From the NCBI GenBank assembly GCA_040954445.1, contig CP144361.1:1612001-1676000 (forward strand): 64,000 nucleotides of DNA, given 5' to 3'. Positions 3,966 through 47,850 of this stretch are shown piece by piece; the first letter of the stretch is position 1; each line of letters begins with the position of its first letter. The translations under genes were made by a program, and so were the position numbers. The notes under the pieces were generated by a model that had not been told where the DNA came from, did no database searches, and saw only the letters and a program-made list of their open reading frames with translations. The stretch is from Burkholderia sp. GTDB taxonomy: Bacteria > Pseudomonadota > Gammaproteobacteria > Burkholderiales > Burkholderiaceae.

Positions 3966-3972
3966 CGAGTTT

Positions 3973-4162
3973 GCGTTGTTGCATAAATCGAGTGTGAGGA
4001 CGCAATAGCATCGACGGGATAATTTCAGGCGATACGAACGGATTGCCGACGAGCGAGGTCCGCCATACGGTTGATGACGCCGACGCGAACGGAGACCTCG
4101 GTCGCCTGAATTATGCCCGTCGATGCCATTGCGTCCTCACGCTCGATTTATGCAACAACGCC
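3973..4162. mobile_element. IS903-type miniature remnant with two like ends
   Basis: A 190-bp block bounded by the IS903-type inverted repeat on both sides. Both arms derive from the transposase-stop end of the element (GAGGACGCAAT.GCATCGACGG and its complement), around about 85 bp of transposase C-terminal sequence, so it cannot encode transposase. No target duplication is visible. Confidence 0.75.
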
Positions 4163-8058: not shown

Positions 8059-8225
8059 GGCGTTGTTGCATAAATCGAGTATGAGGACGCCATGGCATCG
8101 ATGGGCATAATTTCAGGCGATACGAACGGGTGGCGGACGAGCGAGGTCCGCCACCCGTTCGTATCGCCTGAAATTATGCCCATCGATGCCATGGCGTCCT
8201 CATACTCGATTTATGCAACAACGCC
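8059..8225. repeat. perfect palindrome built from two IS903-type ends
   Basis: The 167 bp consist of two exact 79-bp inverted arms around a 9-bp loop (CGAGCGAGG). Each arm is the transposase-stop end of the IS, from the terminal repeat through the last transposase codons. The inner edge abuts a truncated transposase gene. Confidence 0.95.
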
Positions 8226-17542: not shown

Positions 17543-18517
<975 letters not shown>

Positions 18518-24513: not shown

Positions 24514-24540
24514 AGCGTTCCGGAAGATTTGCTGTGGTAC

Positions 24541-25663
24541 GGCGTTGTTGCATAAATCGAGCGAGATCCGTTGACGTTTACGCGCAACGGTCGCGGGGCC
24601 AGCCTCCTATCAAGTCAGATTCCAGAGTAACTGCCTAATTTTTGCCAAAAAAATGCGCAAGGACATACACAAGAAAGGTGAGCCGAAGGCACGCTACCGT
24701 GTCAGGAATTGGGCGGCCTATAATGAAGGCCTGATCAGCCGGGGGAACGTAACAATATGGATAGATGAAGCCGTCCTTGCCAGAATGCCCGATGCCATAC
24801 CCACACGTGGTCGCCCGTGTGTATACGGCGATACGCTGATGCAGGCATTACTTGGCTTGAAGACCGTCTATCGACTGACCTTGCGCGCCCTGCAAGGTTT
24901 CACCCAAAGTCTGCGCGATTTGGCCTTCCCGAGCTTGCCGGTGCCGAATTACACCACGCTCTGTCGCCGGGCAAAAACCCTTGATGTCGAACTGCCGATC
25001 CTTCGTGACAATGAACCGATCTATCTGGTTGTCGACAGCACCGGTCTGAAGGTCTATGGAGAAGGTGAATGGAAGGTGCGCCAGCACGGCTACTCGAAGC
25101 GGCGCACGTGGCGTAAAGTCCATCTCGCGCTCAACGCGAATACAGGTCAAGTGCATGCCGCGCTAATGACGAATCAGAATGTGGCTGACGGTGACGCTCT
25201 GGCCAAGTTGCTCGACCAGATTCCACGCGAAGAACAAATCGATGTCATCGGCGGTGACGGTGCCTACGACACCAAGCCATGCCATGCGGCCATTGCTGCA
25301 CGCAGTGCTATTCCTTCGATTCCGCCACGCGAGGGTGCCGCTCATTGGCCAGCGGATATGCCCGGTGCGGCGTGGCGTAATGGCGCGGTTGATGCAATTG
25401 CCCGTGACGGTCGTCGAGAATGGAAGCAACACAGTGGCTACCACCGGCGATCGCTTGCCGAGAATGCGATGTATCGGTTCAAGACCCTCACCGGCCACTG
25501 TCTCTGGGCGCGTCACATCGCCGCGCAGGCGACCGAGGTCGCCGTTCGCGTCGGCGTCATCAACCGCATGGCGGACCTCGCTCGTCCGCAATCCGTTCGT
25601 ATCGCCTGAATTATGCCCGTCCGATGCCATGGCGTCCTCACACTCGATTTATGCAACAACGCC
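24541..25663 (+). mobile_element. intact IS903-type element (reference copy, 1123 bp)
   Basis: Terminal repeats GGCGTTGTTGCATAAATC and its complement bound an uninterrupted transposase. The 9-bp target duplication CTGTGGTAC is exact at 24532-24540 and 25664-25672. Nine-base duplications and the GGC.TTGTTG.ATAAATC ends are characteristic of the IS903 group of the IS5 family. The insertion split the accD-folC intergenic region 3 bp before the folC ATG is reached beyond the duplication, leaving the folC start intact but removing its upstream context. Confidence 0.97.
24653..25609 (+). CDS. IS903-group (IS5 family) DDE transposase, intact
   Basis: A 318-residue transposase, the reference for the window. 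The N-terminal region MRKDIHKKGEPKARYRVRNW to TIWIDEAVL binds the terminal repeats. The RNase H-like core carries the catalytic residues in VVDSTGLKVYGEGEWKVRQH (Asp), DVIGGDGAYDTK (Asp) and RRSLAENAMYRFK (Glu), with the YREK-like Tyr-Arg following the glutamate. No frameshift is needed for expression, unlike some IS5 groups. Near-identical copies at 54079 and 27586 suggest recent activity. Confidence 0.95.
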   Translation: MRKDIHKKGEPKARYRVRNWAAYNEGLISRGNVTIWIDEAVLARMPDAIPTRGRPCVYGDTLMQALLGLKTVYRLTLRALQGFTQSLRDLAFPSLPVPNYTTLCRRAKTLDVELPILRDNEPIYLVVDSTGLKVYGEGEWKVRQHGYSKRRTWRKVHLALNANTGQVHAALMTNQNVADGDALAKLLDQIPREEQIDVIGGDGAYDTKPCHAAIAARSAIPSIPPREGAAHWPADMPGAAWRNGAVDAIARDGRREWKQHSGYHRRSLAENAMYRFKTLTGHCLWARHIAAQATEVAVRVGVINRMADLARPQSVRIA

Positions 25664-25674
25664 CTGTGGTACAG

Positions 25675-26991
25675 ATGAGCACATTTCCTACTCTGAATGC
25701 CTGGCTCTCGCATCTTGAAACCGCACATCCGATCGGTATCGACATGGGCTTGGCCCGCATCACCCAGGTCAAAGAGACGCTCGGACTGAGTGTCTCGTGC
25801 CCGGTAATCACTGTCTGCGGTACTAACGGAAAGGGTTCAACCTGCGCATTCCTTGAAACCATCCTGCTGAAGGCCGGATATCGCGTCGGCTGCCATACTT
25901 CGCCGCACCTGCTCGCCTTCAACGAGCGTGCGCGCCTAGGTGGCAAGAACGTGACCGACGAGCTGCTGCTACCGCATTTCGAGGCTGTCGAGGCGGCGCG
26001 CCTGAGCCTGGCGCAGCCCGTCACGCTGACCTATTTCGAGTTCACCACGCTGGTGATCCTGCGGCTGTTCGCCGACAGCGAGCTCGACACGGTGATCCTC
26101 GAAGTGGGCCTGGGCGGTCGGCTCGACGCGACGAATACCATCGATGCCGACTGCGCGATTGTCACCAGCATCGACATCGACCATACCGAATACCTGGGTG
26201 ATACACGGGAGAAAATCGGCTTTGAGAAGGCTGGCATCTTCCGTCCCGGTACGCCAGCGATCTGCGGCGATCCCGCGCCGCCGCAAACCCTGCTCGACCA
26301 TGCCGAGTCGATCGGCGTCGACCTGTGGCTGGTCGGTCGCGACTTCCGCTACGAGGCGCAGTTCGGCAATGAGCGTCAGCAGTGGAGCTACCTGGGCCGC
26401 AACAAGCGCTACCCGGCGCTAGCCTACCCTGCGCTGCGTGGTGCCAACCAGCTGCTCAATGCCTCGGTCGCGCTGGCCGCACTAGAGGCGCTACGCTCTC
26501 GCCTGCCGGTATCAGCCCACGACATCCGCCTGGGCTTGGCCAACGCCGAGTTGGCGGGGCGCTTCCAGGTGTTGCCCGGTAAGCCCGCGATCGTCCTCGA
26601 TGTTGCACATAACCCGCACGCGGCCGCAGTGCTCGCAAAAAATCTCGGCAACATGGGTTTTTTTCCGCACACTTATGCGGTGTTTGGGGCGATGCGGGAC
26701 AAGGACATCGCTGGCGTGCTCAAGCAGTTGAAAGGCGAGATTGACCACTGGTGCGTAACTGACCTGCCACTGCTGCTGCGGCGCCCCGCTTCAGCTGAGG
26801 CGCTCGAGACGGCGTTGCGCGAGGCAGGTGTTGAGGATGGTCCCGACAGCAGTGTCGCGCATCATGCCACACCCGAAGACGCTTTTCGAGATGCCCTGAA
26901 ACGGGCCTCAGAGAATGATAGAATTGTGGTTTTTGGTAGCTTTTATACAGTGGCTGGCGTGTTAGCCTACCGTAAATCGCAGCAACACTGA
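25675..26991 (+). CDS. folC: bifunctional folylpolyglutamate/dihydrofolate synthase
   Basis: FolC adds glutamate to dihydropteroate and extends the polyglutamate tail of folates. The 438-residue protein begins MSTFPTLNAWLSHLETAHPI. It carries the P-loop VCGTNGKGSTCAFLE, the LEVGLGGRLDATN motif, SIDIDHTEYLGDTREKIGFE and AGRFQVLPGKPAIVLDVAHN, all typical of the Mur-ligase-like FolC family. The longer open frame starting at 25420 is an artefact that reads through the upstream IS. The ATG at 25675 lies 12 bases after the IS end, so ribosome-binding and promoter sequences are now partly IS-derived. Downstream genes expected in Burkholderia (dedD-like, cvpA, purF) are absent. Confidence 0.94.
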   Translation: MSTFPTLNAWLSHLETAHPIGIDMGLARITQVKETLGLSVSCPVITVCGTNGKGSTCAFLETILLKAGYRVGCHTSPHLLAFNERARLGGKNVTDELLLPHFEAVEAARLSLAQPVTLTYFEFTTLVILRLFADSELDTVILEVGLGGRLDATNTIDADCAIVTSIDIDHTEYLGDTREKIGFEKAGIFRPGTPAICGDPAPPQTLLDHAESIGVDLWLVGRDFRYEAQFGNERQQWSYLGRNKRYPALAYPALRGANQLLNASVALAALEALRSRLPVSAHDIRLGLANAELAGRFQVLPGKPAIVLDVAHNPHAAAVLAKNLGNMGFFPHTYAVFGAMRDKDIAGVLKQLKGEIDHWCVTDLPLLLRRPASAEALETALREAGVEDGPDSSVAHHATPEDAFRDALKRASENDRIVVFGSFYTVAGVLAYRKSQQH

Positions 26992-27036: not shown

Positions 27037-27473
27037 GGCGTTGTTGCATAAATCGAACGTGAGGACGCCATGGCATCGGACGGGCATAATTCAGGCGATA
27101 CGAACGGATTGCGGACGAGCGAGGTCCGCCATGCGGTTGATGACGCCGACGCGAACGGCGACCTCGGTCGCCTGCGCGGCGATGTGACGCGCCCAGAGAC
27201 AGTGGCCGGTGAGGGTCTTGAACCGATACATCGCATTCTCGGCAAGCGATCGCCGGTGGTAGCCACTGTGTTGCTTCCATTCTCGACGACCGTCACGGGC
27301 AATTGCATCAACCGCGCCATTACGCCACGCCGCACCGGGCATATCCGCTGGCCAATGAGCGGCACCCTCGCGTGGCGGAATCGAAGGAATAGCACTGCGT
27401 GCAGCAATGGCCGCATGGCATGGCTTGGTGTCGTAGGCACCGTCACCGCCGATGACATCGATTTGTTCTTCGC

Positions 27474-28604
27474 GGCGTTGTTGCATAAATCGAGCGAGAT
27501 CCGTTGACGTTTACGCGCAACGGTCGCGGGGCCAGCCTCCTATCAAGTCAGATTCCAGAGTAACTGCCTAATTTTTGCCAAGAAAATGCGCAAGGACATA
27601 CACAAGAAAGGTGAGCCGAAGGCACGCTACCGTGTCAGGAATTGGGCGGCCTATAATGAAGGCCTGATCAGCCGGGGGAACGTAACAATATGGATAGATG
27701 AAGCCGTCCTTGCCAGAATGCCCGATGCCATACCCACACGTGGTCGCCCGTGTGTATACGGCGATACGCTGATTCAGGCATTACTTGGCTTGAAGACCGT
27801 CTATCGACTGACCTTGTGCGCCCTGCAAGGTTTCACCCAAAGTCTGCGCGATTTGGCCTTCCCGAGCTTGCCGGTGCCGAATTACACCACGCTCTGTCGC
27901 CGGGCAAAAACGCTTGATGTCGAACTGCCGATCCTTCGTGACAATGAACCGATCTATCTGGTTGTCGACAGCACCGGTCTGAAGGTCTATGGAGAAGGTG
28001 AATGGAAGGTGCGCCAGCACGGCTACTCGAAGCGGCGCACGTGGCGTAAAGTCCATCTCGCGCTCAACGCGAATACAGGTCAAGTGCATGCCGCGCTAAT
28101 GACGAATCAGAATGTGGCTGACGGTGACGCTCTGGCCAAGTTGCTCGACCAGATTCCACGCGAAGAACAAATCGATGTCATCGGCGGTGACGGTGCCTAC
28201 GACACCAAGCCATGCCATGCGGCCATTGCTGCACGCAGTGCCGCAGTGCTATTCCTTCGATTCCGCCACGCGAGGGTGCCGCTCATTGGCCAGCGGATAT
28301 GCCCGGTGCGGCGTGGCGTAATGGCGCGGTTGATGCAATTGCCCGTGACGGTCGTCGAGAATGGAAGCAACACAGTGGCTACCACCGGCGATCGCTTGCC
28401 GAGAATGCGATGTATCGGTTCAAGACCCTCACCGGCCACTGTCTCTGGGCGCGTCACATCGCCGCGCAGGCGACCGAGGTCGCCGTTCGCGTCGGCGTCA
28501 TCAACCGCATGGCGGACCTCGCTCGTCCGCAATCCGTTCGTATCGCCTGAAATTATGCCAGTCGATGCCATTGCGTCCTCACGCTCGATTTATGCAACAA
28601 CGCC
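27474..28604 (+). mobile_element. IS903-type element (inner) inserted into a sister copy
   Basis: 1131 bp in plus orientation, flanked by exact duplications GTTCTTCGC (27465-27473 and 28605-28613) that are transposase codons of the outer element. Its own length exceeds the reference by 8 bp because CGCAGTGC is duplicated near 28240. Confidence 0.96.
27586..28549 (+). pseudogene. IS903-group transposase with 8-bp frameshifting duplication
   Basis: It reads like the reference to GGDGAYDTKPCHAAIAARSA, then the 8-bp duplication shifts the frame and an unrelated frame (LFLRFRHARVPLIGQRICP) is read. The original frame, with the catalytic glutamate, remains intact downstream to 28549, so one small deletion would restore it. 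Confidence 0.9.
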
Positions 28605-29196
28605 GTTCTTCGCGTGGAATCTGGTCGAGCAACTTGGCCAGAGCGTCACCGTCAGCCACATTCTGATTCGTCATTAGCGCGGCATGCACTTGACCTGTAT
28701 TCGCGTTGAGCGCGAGATGGACTTTACGCCACGTGCGCCGCTTCGAGTAGCCGTGCTGGCGCACCTTCCATTCACCTTCTCCATAGACCTTCAGACCGGT
28801 GCTGTCGACAACCAGATGGATCGGTTCATTGTCACGAAGGATCGGCAGTTCGACATCAAGCGTTTTTGCCCGGCGACAGAGCGTGGTGTAATTCGGCACC
28901 GGCAAGCTCGGGAAGGCCAAATCGCGCAGACTTTGGGTGAAACCTTGCAGGGCGCGCAAGGTCAGTCGATAGACGGTCTTCACGCCAAGTAATGCAAGTA
29001 ATGCCTGAATCAGCGTATCGCCGTATACACACGGGCGACCACGTGTGGGTATGGCATCGGGCATTCTGGCAAGGACGGCTTCATCTATCCATATTGTTAC
29101 GTTCCCCCGGCTGATCAGGCCTTCATTATAGGCCGCCCAATTCCTGACACGGTAGCGTGCCTTCGGCTCACCTTTCTTGTGTATGTCCTTGCGCAT
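28605..29196 (-). pseudogene. outer IS903-group transposase, 5' part
   Basis: It starts MRKDIHKKGEPKARYRVRNW at 29196 and is read to QIPREE, where the inner IS interrupts it. The 3' part continues at 27473-27091. It includes an ALLALLGVK duplication relative to the reference. Confidence 0.9.
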
Positions 29197-29317
29197 TTTC
29201 TTGGCAAAAATTAGGCAGTTACTCTGGAATCTGACTTGATAGGAGGCTGGCCCCGCGACCATTGCGCGTAAACGTCAACGGATCTCGCTCGATTTATGCA
29301 ACAACGCCTGTTTAGAC

Positions 29318-33596: not shown

Positions 33597-35582
33597 TCAA
33601 GCCGAAGGCGTGGCTGCCGGTGCTCCGGCGCGATCGAGGCTGCGAAGAAAACGATCGGCTGTCTGGTAGCCCACCACGCGGCCCAGCTCATGGCCATCCG
33701 AGCCGAACACGATGATGCCAGGCGGCCCGAACAACCCGAAGCGCTTGAGCAGCGCCTGGTCGTTGGCATTGTCTGCGGTTACCTCGGCACGTACTAAGTA
33801 CAGCTGGCCGAGACGCGCCTGCACGCGCGGGTCGGTAAAGGTCAGGTGCTCCATCTCTTTGCAGGACACGCACCAGTCGGCGTAGAAATCGAGCATCACG
33901 GGCCAGGCGGTCTTGATCACCTGGTCGAGCTCTGCGTTGGAGCGAACCGGCTCGAAAGCCGGACCTTCGGACACACTGGCGCTGCTGGCCGGGCTTACTG
34001 CCGCTCCGCGTCCGGAGAACACCGACAGGGGGCGCAGCGGATCGGTCGAGCCGGCTGCGAGGCCGGCCAGCAGCATGGCGGCCCAGATCGCAAAGGCCGC
34101 GCCGATGCCGCTTCCCAGGCGGTGCCAGATCGAGGCACCGACCGAGTGCGGCGTGAACAGACCGGTGGCCGCTGCGGCGATCAGGAGCCAGAGCGCTGCC
34201 AGGCCGCTCTGCCAAAACACGCCGAGTACCGGCCAGACGATCCACAACGCAGCCGCCAGCAACATCACACCGAAGAACACCTTGACGCCATCCATCCAGG
34301 CACCCGCACGCGGCAGTAGAATACCGGCACCGAGGCCCATGATCAGCAGCGGAACGCCCAGGCCGATCCCCATCGCGAATAGCGCGGCACCGCCGAGCAG
34401 CGAGTTGCCGGTATGCGCGATGAAAGCCAGCACGGAAAACAGGGGAGCCGTCATGCAGGCACCGACCACCAGCGCCGACAGCGCGCCCATGGTGGTCGCT
34501 GCCAGGAAGCGACCGCCCGAGCGCCGGCTCGATGCCTGCGCGACACCCTCCTGCCAGCACTGCGGCAGCGAAATGTCCATGCCGCCGATCAGGGTCAGCG
34601 CGAATACGGTCAGCAGCAGGCCGAAGGCGCCGAGTATCCACGGATTCTGCAGCCAGGCACCGAGGCTTTGGCCGACCAACGCGGCTGCGATACCGAGCAC
34701 CGTGTAAACCAGAGCCATGCCCACCACGTAAGTTAGCGACAGCAGGGAGCTGCGTGCACGCGTCGTCTGGGTGCCCTCGCCGATAATGATCGCCGACAGG
34801 ATCGGGATCATCGGGTAGGAGCAGGGCAGCAGGCTCAGCACCATACCGACCACGAAGAATAGGGCGATAATGGTTAGGAAGCCATGGCCTTCCAGTAGCG
34901 ATTGCGCATAGTCGACGCTGGTCACGCGGTCGTACCAGCTGCCGTCGAAATGCGGTGCCGGAGTAGGTGAGGGAGTGGCGACCAGGTCCGGTGATGGCGA
35001 GTCTGCGCCGGCTACGGGCGCAGGCGGTATGGGCAAGGCTCGCGTGGCTGATTGCGGTCGCGCCGTCGGGGTTGACGACGCCACGTTCGACGCGGCGGCC
35101 ACTTTGAGCGCTGCGCCGTTGACATGCACGACGTGCTCGGCTGGTGGATAGCAAATCCCGCCGTCTGCGCAGCCCTGGGACGTGACCGACAGATCGAACG
35201 CCCCGCTCGTCTTGGCGAGCGGCACGTGGATCGTTACCTTGCCCCGGTAGGTCTCGACGTTCTTAGCGAAGGCCTCGTCGTACTTCACGTGGCCGACCGG
35301 CAATTGCGCCTCGCTGAGCGTCGCGTTACCTCTCTTTACTGTAAAAGTGAAGCGCTCGCGGTACATGTAGTAGCCGTTAGCGATCTTGAAGTGGACGTTG
35401 ACCTGCCCTGGTGCCTCGCTCGAGCTGAAGCGGAACGCGACCGAGGGATCGAGGAAATCGTCGTCAGCGCGCGCGGTCGACGAGATTCCGAACAACGATG
35501 AGGCGAAGAGCACCAGGCAAAAGAGCAGCAAACGCAGGTCGGCAGCCGTGGAGAATTGGCGATCAGACAGGCATTGTTGCAT
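33597..35582 (-). CDS. dsbD: thiol:disulfide interchange protein DsbD, start codon supplied by an IS
   Basis: DsbD carries electrons from cytosolic thioredoxin across the inner membrane to periplasmic DsbC/DsbE-type partners. Domains in order: signal peptide (LLLFCLVLFASSLF...ARA), periplasmic immunoglobulin-like alpha domain with the redox pair in SQGCADGGICYPP, eight membrane helices with LLPCSYPM and VVGACMTAP cysteines, and the periplasmic thioredoxin-like gamma domain with WCVSCK. The native start (ATG TCT GAT CGC, MSDRQF) overlapped the cutA stop. The IS at 35570 separated the A from its TG, but the IS end reads ATG CAA CAA TGC into the same frame, giving MQQCLSDRQF. A longer frame from 35810 inside the IS also exists. 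No ribosome-binding site is evident before the new ATG, so expression is uncertain. Confidence 0.9.
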   Translation of the reverse strand: MQQCLSDRQFSTAADLRLLLFCLVLFASSLFGISSTARADDDFLDPSVAFRFSSSEAPGQVNVHFKIANGYYMYRERFTFTVKRGNATLSEAQLPVGHVKYDEAFAKNVETYRGKVTIHVPLAKTSGAFDLSVTSQGCADGGICYPPAEHVVHVNGAALKVAAASNVASSTPTARPQSATRALPIPPAPVAGADSPSPDLVATPSPTPAPHFDGSWYDRVTSVDYAQSLLEGHGFLTIIALFFVVGMVLSLLPCSYPMIPILSAIIIGEGTQTTRARSSLLSLTYVVGMALVYTVLGIAAALVGQSLGAWLQNPWILGAFGLLLTVFALTLIGGMDISLPQCWQEGVAQASSRRSGGRFLAATTMGALSALVVGACMTAPLFSVLAFIAHTGNSLLGGAALFAMGIGLGVPLLIMGLGAGILLPRAGAWMDGVKVFFGVMLLAAALWIVWPVLGVFWQSGLAALWLLIAAAATGLFTPHSVGASIWHRLGSGIGAAFAIWAAMLLAGLAAGSTDPLRPLSVFSGRGAAVSPASSASVSEGPAFEPVRSNAELDQVIKTAWPVMLDFYADWCVSCKEMEHLTFTDPRVQARLGQLYLVRAEVTADNANDQALLKRFGLFGPPGIIVFGSDGHELGRVVGYQTADRFLRSLDRAGAPAATPSA

Positions 35583-36690
35583 AAATCGAGTGTGAGGACG
35601 CAATAGCATCGACGGGATAATCAGGCGATACGAACGGATTGCGGACGAGCGAGGTCTGCCATACGGTTGATGACGCCGACGCGAACGGAGACCTCGGTCG
35701 CCTGTGAGTCGATGTGGCGCGCCCAGAGACAGTTGCCGGTGAAGGTCTTGAACCGATACATCGCATTCTCTGCAAGCGATCGCCGGTGGTAACCACTGTC
35801 TTGCTTCCATTCTCGACGACCGTCACGGGCAATTGCATCAACCGCGCCATTACGCCACGCCGCACCGGGCATATCCGCTGGCCAATGAACGGCACCCTCG
35901 CGTGGCGGAATCGAAGGAATAGCACTGCATGCAGCAATGGCCGCATGGCATGGCTTGGTGTCGTAGGCACCGTCACCGCTGATGAGATCGATTTGTTCTT
36001 CTCGTGGAATCTGGTCGAGCAACTTGGCCAGGGCGTCACCGTCAGGCACATTCTGATGCGTCATTAGCGCGGCATGCACTTGACCCGTATTCGCATTGAG
36101 CGCGAGATGGACTTTACGCCACGTGCGCCGCTTCGAGTAGCCGTGCTGGCGCACCTTCCATTCACTTTCGCCATAGACCTTCAGACCGGTGCTGTCGACA
36201 ACTCGATAAATCGGTTCATTGTCATGAAGGATCGGCAGTTCGACATCAAGCGTTTTTTCCCGGCGACAGAGCGTGGTGTAATTCGGCACCGGCAAGCTCG
36301 GGAAGGCCAGATCGCGCAGACTTTGGGTGAAACCTTGCAGGGCGCGCAACGTCCGTCGATAGCCGGTCTTCACGCCAAGTAATGCCTGAATCAGCGTATC
36401 ACCGTATAGAAACGGGCGACCACGTGTGGGTATGGCATCGGGTATCCTGGCAAGGACGGCTTCATCTATCCATATTGTTATGTTCCCCCGGTTGATCAAC
36501 CCTTCATGATAGGCCACCCAATTCCTGACACGGTAGCGTGCCTTCGGCTCACCTGTCTTGTGTATGTCCTTGCGCATTTTCTGGGCAAAAATTAGGCAGT
36601 GACTCTGGAATCTGACTTGATAGGGGGGGTGGCCCCGCGACCGTTGCGCGTAAACGTCAACGGATCTCGCTCGATTTATGCAACAACGCC
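35570..36690 (-). mobile_element. IS903-type element splitting cutA and dsbD
   Basis: 1121 bp, left repeat slightly diverged (GGCATTGTTGCATAAATC), right repeat canonical, exact 9-bp duplication GATCAGACA at 35561-35569 and 36691-36699. The transposase is complete. Confidence 0.96.
35621..36577 (-). CDS. IS903-group transposase, complete reading frame
   Basis: 318 residues from MRKDIHKTGEPKARYRVRNW to PQSVRIA with the DDE residues in RVVDSTGLKVYGESEWK, LISGDGAYDTK and SLAENAMYRFK. It differs from the 24653 copy at many residues (for example YHEGLINRGNI, TGYRRTLRAL), so it belongs to an older subgroup. It is probably translatable. Confidence 0.92.
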   Translation of the reverse strand: MRKDIHKTGEPKARYRVRNWVAYHEGLINRGNITIWIDEAVLARIPDAIPTRGRPFLYGDTLIQALLGVKTGYRRTLRALQGFTQSLRDLAFPSLPVPNYTTLCRREKTLDVELPILHDNEPIYRVVDSTGLKVYGESEWKVRQHGYSKRRTWRKVHLALNANTGQVHAALMTHQNVPDGDALAKLLDQIPREEQIDLISGDGAYDTKPCHAAIAACSAIPSIPPREGAVHWPADMPGAAWRNGAVDAIARDGRREWKQDSGYHRRSLAENAMYRFKTFTGNCLWARHIDSQATEVSVRVGVINRMADLARPQSVRIA

Positions 36691-36692
36691 GA

Positions 36693-37019
36693 TCAGACAT
36701 GGAATAAGCGTTGGGTTTCGGTTGCCGCCCAAGCGCCGTAAGCATCGGAGGCGATGGCCTGCCACGAGACGATTTCGGGCGTCTCGTAGGGATGATGGGA
36801 CGCGATAAAGCGCTCGAGTTCGAGCGAGCGCTGGGTGCTCGTCTTGAACAACAACTGGATCTCCTCCGTGGATTCGACCTTGCCCTGCCAGTGGTAGTTC
36901 GAGCGGATCGTGCCGAGTTCCGAAACGCACGCCGCGAGTCGCCCGCTCAGCGCGCCGTCGGCGAGCAGGCGGGCCGTAGCCGAATCAGGTACAGTCGTCA
37001 TCATCAGAACGATTTCCAT
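36693..37019 (-). CDS. cutA: divalent-cation tolerance protein CutA
   Basis: CutA is a small trimeric ferredoxin-fold protein implicated in copper/divalent metal tolerance, of uncertain biochemical role. The 108 residues start MEIVLMMTTVPDSATARLLA and include LAACVSELGTIRSNYHWQGK, VESTEEIQLLFKTS and SHHPYETPEIVSW, the signature region of the family. The second ATG (37019) is used because AGGA is seven bases upstream of it; the ATG at 37025 is too close. The stop codon lies within the 9-bp IS target duplication. The original dsbD ATG overlapped the last codons, implying translational coupling, now broken by the IS. Confidence 0.93.
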   Translation of the reverse strand: MEIVLMMTTVPDSATARLLADGALSGRLAACVSELGTIRSNYHWQGKVESTEEIQLLFKTSTQRSLELERFIASHHPYETPEIVSWQAIASDAYGAWAATETQRLFHV

Positions 37020-37059
37020 TAACATTTCCTATTTCCTGCTGGGACTTGCCGAAACGCTA

Positions 37060-38202
37060 GGCGTTTTTGCATAAACCGAGCGTAAAGATGCAATGGCATC
37101 GACGGGCATAATTTTAGGCGATACGAACGAATTGCAGACGAGTGAAGTCCACCATGCGGTTGATTACATTGACTCGCAGGCGACCGAGGTCGCTTGCGAG
37201 TCAATGTAACACGCCCAGAGAGAGTGGCCGATGAGGGTCTTGAACCGATACATCGCATTTTCGGCAAGCGATCGCCGGTGGTAGCCACTGTCTTGCTTCC
37301 ATTCTCAACGACTGTCACGGGCAATTGCATCAACCACACCATTACGCCACGCCGCATCGGGCATATCCGCTGGCCAATGAGCGGCACCCTCGCGTGGCGG
37401 AATCGAAGGAATAGCACTGCGTGCAGCAATGGCCGCATAGCATGGCTTAGTATCGTAGGCACCGTCACCGCCGATGACATCGATTTGTTCTTCGCGTGGA
37501 ATCTGGTCGAGCAACTTGGCCAGAGCGTTACCGTCAGCCACATTCTGATTCGTCATTAGCGCGGCATGCACTTGACCTGTATTCGCGTTGAGCGCGAGAT
37601 GGACTTTACGCCACGTGCGCCGCTTCGAGTAGCCGTGCTGGCGCACCTTCCATTCACCTTCTCCATAGACCTTCAGACCGGTGCTGTCGACAACTATATG
37701 GATCGGTTCATTGTCACGAAGGATCGGCAGTTCGACATCAAGCGTTTTTGCCCAGCGACAGAGCGTGGTGTAATTCGGCACCGGCAAGCTCGAGAAGGCC
37801 AGATCGCGCAGACTTTGGGTGAAACCTTGCAGGGCGCGCAACGTCAGTCGATAGACGGTCTTCACGCCCCAAGTAATACCTAAATCATCGTATCGCCATA
37901 TAGACACGGGCGACCACATGTGGGTATGGCATCGGGTATTCTGGCAAGGACGGCTTCATCTATCCATATTGTTACGTTCCCCCGGTTGATCAGGCCTTCA
38001 TTATAGGCCGCCCAATTCCTGACACGGTAGCGTGCCTTCGGCTCACCTTTTTGCGTATATCTTTGCGCATTTTCTTGACAAAAATTAGGCAGTTACTCTG
38101 GAACCTGACTTGATAGGAGGCTGGCCCGCGACCGTTGCGCGTAAACGTCAACGGATCTCGCTCGATTTATGCAACAACGCCCTCGATTTATGCAATAACG
38201 CC
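37060..38202 (-). mobile_element. degraded IS903-type copy with doubled right end
   Basis: Left end GGCGTTTTTGCATAAACC, right end canonical at 38181 followed by a second, slightly mutated end (TTTATGCAATAACGCC) to 38202. No target duplication. Confidence 0.85.
37114..38070 (-). pseudogene. IS903-group transposase pseudogene
   Basis: The start MRKDIRKK is frameshifted after eight codons. A further frame change and a TAG lie near 37880 (deletion in the GDTLIQALL region). The segment from LGVKTVYRL to IARDS is clean, including both aspartate motifs. Confidence 0.85.
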
Positions 38203-43476: not shown

Positions 43477-43906
43477 GGCGTTGTTGCATAAATCGATTCA
43501 AGCGATACGAACGGATTGCGGACGAGCAAGCTCTGCAATCCGTTCCATTACGTCCTCACGCTCGATTTATGCAACAAAGCCGTCTTCACGCCAAGTAATG
43601 CCTGAATCAGCGTATCGCCGTATACACACGGGCGACCACGTGTGGGTATGGCATCGGGTATTCTGGCAAGGACGGCTTCATCTATCCATATTGTTACATT
43701 CCCACGGTTGATCAGGCCTTCATTGTAGGCCGCCCAATTCCTGACACGATAGCGTGCGCCTTCGGCTCACTTTCTTATGTATGTTCTTTCGCATTTTCTT
43801 GGCAAAAATTAGGCAGTTACTCTGGAATCTGACTTGATAGGAGGCTGGCCCCGCGACCGTTGCGCGTAAACGTCAACGGATCTCGCTCGATTTATGCAAC
43901 AACGCC
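43477..43906 (-). mobile_element. IS903-type miniature joined to a 5' transposase fragment
   Basis: A 105-bp miniature with both terminal repeats (43477-43581; right repeat GCAACAAAGCC) adjoins about 325 bp of the transposase-start end, in which the first codons (to LGVKT) are frameshifted near 43765 (GTGCGCCTTCGG). It ends with the canonical repeat at 43906. Confidence 0.8.
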
Positions 43907-45973: not shown

Positions 45974-46726
45974 TCAGTGGCGAGTTTCGCAGACCTGGCA
46001 ATCGGCTTGCCGCATGATGCGCATGGTATTCCATTCCATGCGCAGCGAATCGAGCATCATCAGCCGACCGACCAGCGGCTTGCCGAAGCCGCCCGCCAAG
46101 CGTAACGCCTCGGCCGCTTGCATTGCGCCGATGATGCCGACCGTTGGCGCGAACACGCCCATGGTTGAGCAGGCCACTTCCTCGAAAGGCTGGTCCTCTG
46201 GGAATACGCAGGCATAGCAAGGAGAAGCCGGATCGCGGAAATCAAAGCTGCTGATCTGGCCATCGAAGCGCAGCGCCGCGCCCGAGACAAGCGGCACGCC
46301 GTGCACGGCGCAGGCGCGATTGATCGCGTGGCGCGTCGCGAAGTTGTCGCTACAGTCGAGTACCACGTCAGCGTGCTGTGCGGCGGCGTCGAGCCAGGCG
46401 ACATCGGCGTGCTCGGCCACCGCATGCACTACCACCTCGGGGTTGAGGCGCGCCAATGCGTCACGGCCCGATTCCACCTTGCTACGACCGACCGATTCGG
46501 TGACGTGCAGGATCTGGCGCTGCAAGTTGGTGAGGTCGACCGTGTCTGCGTCGACCAAGGTGATCGCACCAATGCCCGAGGCGGCCAAGTACATTGCCGC
46601 AGGAGAACCGAGGCCGCCCGCGCCGATCACCAGCGCATGCGCGTCGAGGAAGCGCTGCTGCGCCTCAATGCCAATCTCGTCGACCAGGATGTGGCGGGAA
46701 TAGCGGAGCAGTTGTTCGTCGCGCAT
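45974..46726 (-). CDS. moeB: MoeB/ThiF-type adenylyltransferase
   Basis: An E1-like enzyme that adenylates the C-terminal glycine of a sulfur-carrier protein (MoaD or ThiS) for molybdopterin or thiamine synthesis. The 250-residue protein has the ATP-binding GAGGLGS (35-41), DLTNLQRQ, DCSDNFATR, cysteine 186 in ACSTMGVF, and the zinc pairs CYAC (170-173) and CQVC (243-246). A C-terminal rhodanese domain is absent, as in E. coli MoeB. The start at 46726 (MRDEQLLRYSRHI) is used; the longer frame to 46975 reads into an IS. MoeB and ThiF cannot be separated by sequence alone. The carrier genes are not in the window. Confidence 0.88.
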   Translation of the reverse strand: MRDEQLLRYSRHILVDEIGIEAQQRFLDAHALVIGAGGLGSPAAMYLAASGIGAITLVDADTVDLTNLQRQILHVTESVGRSKVESGRDALARLNPEVVVHAVAEHADVAWLDAAAQHADVVLDCSDNFATRHAINRACAVHGVPLVSGAALRFDGQISSFDFRDPASPCYACVFPEDQPFEEVACSTMGVFAPTVGIIGAMQAAEALRLAGGFGKPLVGRLMMLDSLRMEWNTMRIMRQADCQVCETRH

Positions 46727-46764
46727 CGCAGAGACGGTCGAAAAGAGTGGCTTCAAGAGTGAAG

Positions 46765-47850
46765 GGCGTTGTTGCATAAATCGATTCAGGCGATACGAAT
46801 GGATTGCGGACGAGCGAGGTCCGCCATGCGGTTGATGACGCCGACGCGAATGGCGACCTCGGTCGCCTGCGAGGCGATGTGACGTTCCCAGAGACAGTTG
46901 CCGGTGAGGTTCTTGAACCGATACATCGCATTCTCGGCAAGCGATCGCCGGTGGTAGCCACTGTCCTGCTTCCATGCTCGACGACCTTCACGGGCAATTG
47001 CGTCAACCGCCCCCACCACGCCGCACCGGGCATATCCTCTGGCCAATGAGCGGCACCCTCGCGTGGCGGAATCGAAGGCATAGCACTACGTGCAGCAATG
47101 GCCGCATGGCATGGCTTGGTGTCGTAGGCACCGTCACCGCCGATGACATCGATTTGTTTTTCGCGTGGAATCTGGTCGAGCAACTTAGCCAGAGCGTCAC
47201 CGTCAGCCACATTCTGATTCGTTATTAGCGCGGCATGCACTTGACCCGTATTCGCGTTGAGCGCGAGATGGACTTTACGCCACGTGCGCCGCTTCAAGTA
47301 GCCGTGCTGGCGTACCTTCCATTCACTTTCGCCATAGACCTTCAGACCAGTGCTGTCGACAACCAGATGGATCGGTTCGTTGTCGCGAAGGATCGGCAGT
47401 TCGACATCAAGCGTTTTTGCCCGGCGACAGAGCATAGTGTAATTCGACACCGGAAAGCTCGGGAAGGCGAGATCGCGCAGACTTTGGGTGAAACCTTGCA
47501 GGGCGCGCAACGTCAGTCGATAGACGGTCTTCACACCAAGTAACGCCTGAATCAGCGCATCGCCGTATAAACACGGGCGACCACGTGTGGGCATGGCGGC
47601 GGGTATTCTAGCAAGGACGGCCTCATCTATCCATATCGTCACGTTCCCCCGGTTGATCAGGCCTGCATTATAGGCCGCCCAATTCCTGACACGGTAGCGT
47701 GCCTTCGGCTCACCTGTCTTGTGTATGTCCTTGCACATTTTCTTGTCAAAAATTAAGCAGTTACTCTGGAATCTGACTTGATAGGGGGCTGGTCCCGCGA
47801 CCGTTGCGCGTAAACGTCAACGGATCTCGCTCGATTTATGCAACAACGCC
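46765..47850 (-). mobile_element. IS903-type copy upstream of moeB
   Basis: Canonical repeats at both ends, no target duplication; internal deletions shorten it. Immediately beyond the right end is a 13-bp scrap of IS903-type sequence (ATTCTGATGCATC). Confidence 0.88.
46796..47738 (-). pseudogene. IS903-group transposase pseudogene
   Basis: MCKDIHKTGEPKARYRVRNW onward is intact through both aspartates, then a deletion at AAW|WGRLT shifts the frame before the glutamate motif. The catalytic end remains in another frame (SLAENAMYRFKNL). Confidence 0.86.

Follow-up and report, generated by a model that had tools for sequence, protein, structure and literature searches.

In a 64,000-nucleotide stretch of the Burkholderia sp. 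contig CP144361.1 (the window, meaning the whole stretch analysed), an insertion sequence (IS) of the IS5 family, with a 9-bp target duplication, sits in the start-stop overlap of the gene pair cutA and dsbD. The uncommon point is a double exchange: the native dsbD start passed to the transposase, and IS-borne starts passed to dsbD. That the fit is in frame is itself a matter of one-in-three chance. Judged from the sequence, dsbD is probably kept, at reduced expression, by these IS-borne starts, a reading held with modest confidence. The features concerned are as follows (aa, amino acids; nt, nucleotides; ORF, open reading frame).

33597..35582, minus strand: dsbD frame as read from the IS ATG; it spans 661 aa and ends in a stop at 33597; NF001419 DsbD at 506.7 bits (cut-off 330), with DsbD_N, DsbD_TM and thioredoxin domains.
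35561..35569, unstranded: 9-bp target duplication, left copy (GATCAGACA), covering dsbD codons 1-4.
35568..35570, minus strand: slot of the former start codon, which now reads CTG (the C supplied by the IS, the TG by dsbD).
35570..36690, minus strand: IS5-family insertion sequence of 1,121 bp, running in the direction of cutA and dsbD and recognized by its ends, duplication and transposase profile.
35580..35582, minus strand: terminal-repeat ATG of the IS, sharing the dsbD frame (MQQCLSDRQF...); the transposase stop lies 38 nt before it.
35607..35609, minus strand: further in-frame ATG carried by the IS (MLLRPHTRFMQQCLSDRQF...), with the transposase stop 11 nt before it.
35621..36577, minus strand: transposase ORF, 318 aa without the stop.
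36691..36699, unstranded: right copy of the duplication, GATCAGACA, in which the cutA stop lies, along with most of the native start of dsbD.
36698..36700, minus strand: native dsbD ATG, kept beside cutA; it now begins the transposase frame, which runs 359 aa to the stop at 35623-35621.
36693..37025, minus strand: cutA, intact, 110 aa, with its own stop TGA at 36695-36693; PF03091 at 5.1e-28, 92% to its nearest relative (locus L085).

The element ends in GGCATTGTTGCATAAATCGAGTG and, inverted, GGCGTTGTTGCATAAATCGAGCG; its terminal inverted repeats have 33-nt arms that are 82% complementary, flank bases counted in. The repeat search returned a match of 10 nt, the adjoining C being common to both sides, and the duplication proper is 9 bp and exact. 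The transposase is an IS5-type DDE enzyme (NF033579, 310.6 bits against a cut-off of 140; PF13737 and PF01609 also matched), and the closest public transposases share 92% identity over 89% of the query. Three relatives carry the uninterrupted site, in which the two flanks adjoin, with an overlap of the duplicated bases and the shared C (dsbD flank end/cutA flank begin at 96/105 in L126, 18291/18300 in L127 and 18460/18469 in L129). The preliminary description had stated that an IS took the dsbD start codon and that its removal restores the overlap, and both statements hold, dsbD keeping only TG of its start. The interval it gave, 35561..36699, captures a real insertion but begins at the left duplication, the IS itself being 35570-36690.

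In the native arrangement, the cutA stop TGA (minus strand, 36695-36693) lies inside ATGTCTGATC, whose ATG occupies 36700-36698. Native starts were surveyed at 63 loci (L001-L033 and L085-L114), with at least one genome entering twice (L028 and L092). ATGTYTRR spans the cutA stop at all 63, in the variants ATGTTTAA (49 loci), ATGTCTAA (6), ATGTCTGA (4), ATGTTTGA (2) and ATGTTTAG (2), so that the start-stop overlap characteristic of a coupled gene pair is native throughout. This comparison of the junction across relatives, proposed in the preliminary description, turned up no differing native dsbD start. Pairing energy with the anti-Shine-Dalgarno sequence at the native dsbD starts has a median of 0.1 kcal/mol (range -3.3 to 0.4), poorer than in random 20-mers (-2.8), and stands at 0.3 kcal/mol at the new ATG; the measure is low-powered, the first ATGs of relatives' long ORFs giving a median of -3.0 (n=108) against the same -2.8. 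Because upstream pairing is essentially nil, dsbD would natively depend on its overlap with cutA. The native start having no Shine-Dalgarno sequence, the absence of a ribosome-binding site at the new start is therefore no change: the earlier remark that none is apparent is right for the new ATG, but it is not a mark of decay.

After the insertion, the IS end reads ATG CAA CAA TGC CTG TCT GAT CGC from 35582, and the frame stays open for 661 aa, exactly the in-frame ATG first proposed; a public protein from a metagenome-assembled genome (MAG), P0001, also begins MQQCLSDRQF. That first account missed a second in-frame IS ATG, at 35609, as well as what became of the native ATG, which reads into the transposase for 359 aa in total vs 318 for the usual ORF. 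Stop-to-start distances are now +38 nt and +11 nt from the transposase stop. The supposed loss of coupling to cutA is true of the direct overlap, which is gone, but a weakened relay could run from the native ATG through the transposase to a stop 11 nt before the ATG at 35609. Folding is weaker around the new start than around the native start of the B. gladioli-like locus L085 (-9.8 vs -16.1 kcal/mol). No sigma-70-like site was found in 35400-37200, an uninformative result where shuffles averaged 0.8.

Under the proposed mechanism, transcripts entering from upstream would carry dsbD, and DsbD would be made at a reduced level from an IS-borne start. The supply of ribosomes would be owed in part to termination at the transposase stop, which precedes the nearer ATG by 11 nt, or else to weak initiation without a Shine-Dalgarno sequence. 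The longer N-terminus would only extend the front of the predicted signal peptide.

The body of dsbD is whole. Its frame is open to the normal end over about 1.97 kb with no stop or frameshift, and the motifs GGIC, LPCSYP, GACMT and WCVSC (nDsbD, membrane and thioredoxin parts) are present, as are three redox cysteine pairs, with nine cysteines counted; the redox roles are presumably those of the E. coli DsbD cysteines. The same window holds a full-length frame for trxB (17555-18517), thioredoxin reductase, which is part of the electron route feeding DsbD. On the window branch, the ratio of nonsynonymous to synonymous substitution rates (dN/dS) of dsbD is 0.19 (0.13-0.26) or 0.21 (0.14-0.30), depending on the outgroup, and on the B. 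gladioli branch 0.14 and 0.10; the window interval overlaps the B. gladioli branch. Set against other branches and genes, these values show dsbD to be under constraint over the whole branch, if perhaps somewhat relaxed. Of the usual marks of a pseudogene, dsbD shows a lost start codon, its frame being undamaged and its dN/dS 0.19-0.21.

Time since insertion was approached through the IS copy, which carries 28 private substitutions (maximum-likelihood branch 0.039; the youngest copies have 1-3). Scaled from these, neutral expectation for dsbD is 1.5-2.4 stops and 3.3-5.1 frameshifts (total 4.8-7.5), and none is seen (P 0.008-0.0005), on the assumptions that all 28 private substitutions postdate the insertion and that dsbD is unselected. 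The frameshift rate, 12 frameshifting indels per 180 private substitutions, was estimated on six further IS copies.

A rival account makes dsbD a recent pseudogene, its expression ended by the insertion with too little time for visible damage. It is a possible but doubtful explanation: most of the 28 private substitutions would need to precede the insertion, some 1.97 kb would have had to escape every stop and frameshift, and the fusion also occurs in another public record, P0001. Yet direct coupling is lost, the new starts are without a Shine-Dalgarno sequence, one DsbD residue is missing in the window, a synonymous excess among the private changes of the IS permits a late insertion, and stops alone are compatible with neutrality. 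The likely host genome also has many called pseudogenes (1613/3676 ORFs in the complete genome LvStB_2023, as reported in PMC11542224). The preliminary description left dsbD as either rescued or dying; with an intact frame and a dN/dS of about 0.2, the balance leans to kept but weakened, unproven as this is.

Several observations weigh against a dsbD that is retained and expressed. Its dN/dS exceeds that of the window genes htpG (0.07), folC (0.09) and moeB (0.09) and is near that of cutA (0.16). At 33903-33905, the window reads TAWPVML vs TAGRPVML in P0001, one residue fewer before the thioredoxin motif; by pattern match, S/A-x-x-P stands at this site in 119/120 fetched DsbD proteins, where the window has A-W-P, and the change is either a real residue loss or a long-read error. 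The decay test leans on a six-copy frameshift rate that may itself include long-read errors, and for stops alone (1.5-2.4 expected) the chance of seeing none is about 0.22-0.09. Pooled private changes of the IS copies show a synonymous excess (68/174 vs 28% expected, P 0.001), with 10/23 synonymous in this copy alone (P 0.08), and because of that excess part of the copy's divergence may predate its insertion; dating by the IS copy was set aside as not clean for this reason. Another copy of the same IS (37026-37082) ends 34 nt upstream of cutA, at a place where three relatives hold other sequence with a TACGAT/TAGGAT hexamer, and a putative cutA-dsbD promoter may also have been displaced by it. 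Within the transposase, the dsbD strand has a terminator-like site (35939-35923), such sites being at chance level overall (2 found vs 1.4 expected). In E. coli reporters, a 38-nt gap lowered reinitiation by 80-90% in two gene pairs and abolished it in a third, and shorter stop-start distances gave variable, gene-pair-specific reinitiation, as reported in PMC10666635; the +11 nt of the nearer ATG belongs to a range which that paper set aside as variable.

P0001 (NCBI, 'MAG: protein-disulfide reductase DsbD [Burkholderia sp.]'; contig of 24,973 bases) shares the fused N-terminus of the window and is identical to the window DsbD but for the one site described. The next nearest DsbD proteins are at 85% (B. 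gladioli) and 86% (genome G018), and the Burkholderia sp. MAG records P0009, P0011 and P0012 begin MSDRQ, the native-type start. A sequencing or assembly error could in principle lie behind the junction or the in-frame fit. In its favour, the likely source assembly was built from long reads alone and is 'error-prone' according to its authors (PMC11542224), but the duplication is exact and P0001, whose DNA may or may not be independent of that of the window, begins MQQCLSDRQF with the same IS-end variant, which leaves an artefact very improbable.

DsbD could also be made without the IS ATGs, by initiation at the CTG in the former slot or at a downstream TTG, GTG or CTG. CTG falls exactly in the start slot (35570), CTG, TTG and GTG codons at 35537-35495 have anti-Shine-Dalgarno energies down to -2.8, and P0013, a relative's record, is annotated from within the signal peptide (MLFGALFG). 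CTG is, however, a rare start, and downstream starts would presumably remove the charged front of the signal peptide, so that this route is improbable.

The idea of the IS end as a portable start codon survives as a sequence property of this IS group, with no enrichment to speak for a function. The terminal-repeat outward ATG is present in 7/8 ends of four related plasmid ISs, whereas an equivalent of the nearer ATG (35609) occurs in 0/4. Gene starts were sampled through 19 host genes named by family searches rather than every window gene, with approximate start positions for trpF, htpG, ftsH, rlmE and typA. A codirectional IS end lies within 450 nt of the start in 14 of these 19; five of the 14 starts are in frame with the IS-end ATG (about 4.7 expected by chance), and three are also open to it (dsbD, folC and moeB). 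folC and moeB keep their own ATG, and dsbD alone needs the IS codon. Across the 55 matches to the IS end, the frame of the ATG stays open for a median of 24 codons, vs 17 and 24 for the other two; because the search pattern includes the ATG and tolerates 4 mismatches, finding the ATG in 54/55 is partly selected. With in-frame starts at chance level and no enrichment, a portable start as an evolved function was rejected.

A bolder reading, which we consider quite unlikely, is that the transposase-side IS end forms a travelling translation relay, a transposase stop followed by in-frame outward ATGs at about +14 and +41 nt. A codirectional IS landing on a gene start would capture the upstream gene's coupled start for its transposase and hand ribosomes to the broken gene. 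Such a relay would soften insertion damage at gene starts in IS-flooded genomes, letting many copies persist. The second outward ATG starts 13 nt from the IS end, and spacings of 41 and 14 nt are found in 4/9 other long window copies (c24541, c27474, c54025 and c49994); in the remaining five, the transposase frame or tail is changed and the spacings differ. No clear precedent for an IS or repeat supplying a start codon was found in a literature search mostly without subscription papers, and absence in print is not claimed.

Beside folC, a young-looking IS copy (24532-25690; duplication CTGTGGTAC, 2 private substitutions, a 318-aa ORF) precedes the folC ATG by 11 nt, 9 of which are the duplication, and its end ATG is in the folC frame. 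Upstream of moeB, an IS end (46726-46790) is in frame and open to the gene (MQQRPSLLKPLFSTVSAM), its ATG 51 nt before the native-type start.

The window comes from an IS-rich genome of the B. gladioli group, judging by sequence, and its probable host is LvStB, a symbiont of Lagria villosa. This IS makes up one third of the window (21,336/64,000 bases), and the guanine-cytosine (GC) content is 55-59%; the complete genome LvStB_2023 has a 1.89-Mbp chromosome at 58.63% GC (reported in PMC11542224), and an earlier Lv-StB draft held multiple IS5-family transposase copies (reported in PMC7042692). In a genus search that scored the first candidates per genome, the IS matched in 21/65 genomes, the best and only full-length one among the matches listed reaching 76%; it had no match in G018. 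One IS lies within another at 27037-29308 (inner copy 27474-28604 with duplication GTTCTTCGC, outer copy flanked on both sides by TGTTTAGAC). Short pieces are held between two outward IS ends at 3972-4162, 8059-8225 and 43477-43581; the first two show two left ends facing each other and resemble small derivatives of the same IS.

As an accident of decay in a symbiont genome of a familiar kind, the case is neat but mostly ordinary. Its value is that of a clean natural example in which an IS exchanges the start of an overlapping gene pair and both coding bodies stay unbroken, raising the directly testable question of how frequently a gene outlasts an insertion at its start codon when the genome is IS-rich and shrinking. 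The correctness of 'pseudogene' and 'intact gene' counts at the 5' end in such genomes is also at stake: if IS-end starts work, annotation and gene-loss models need such a class, and if they fail, annotated proteins that begin inside IS ends are false.

Among known systems, the element comes closest to members of the IS5 family that public records label ISBam3 (Burkholderia MAG records) and ISRta5 (Cupriavidus). Four plasmid relatives share its end type and size (1.12-1.13 kb), the three annotated ones with 318-319 aa transposases, and have exact 9-bp duplications at 3/4; they differ in DNA identity (67-76%), and in that the present copy sits on a gene start. In Burkholderia Lv-StB, a genome-eroded beetle symbiont and likely the same organism, polA and uvrC are broken beside transposases (described in PMC7042692), whereas the body of dsbD is whole and only its start is exchanged. 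IS5 activation of glpFK in E. coli is similar in that an insertion alters a neighbour's expression, as is predicted for dsbD; the glpFK effect is transcriptional, via IHF and DNA bending, as reported in PMC2753651, whereas in dsbD the start codon itself is replaced. Termination-reinitiation coupling, as treated in PMC10666635, is matched by the native cutA/dsbD overlap and by the new layout, in which starts come +11 and +38 nt beyond a stop, with the difference that +38 nt is beyond efficient coupling and +11 nt falls just outside the predictive range (-8 to +10).

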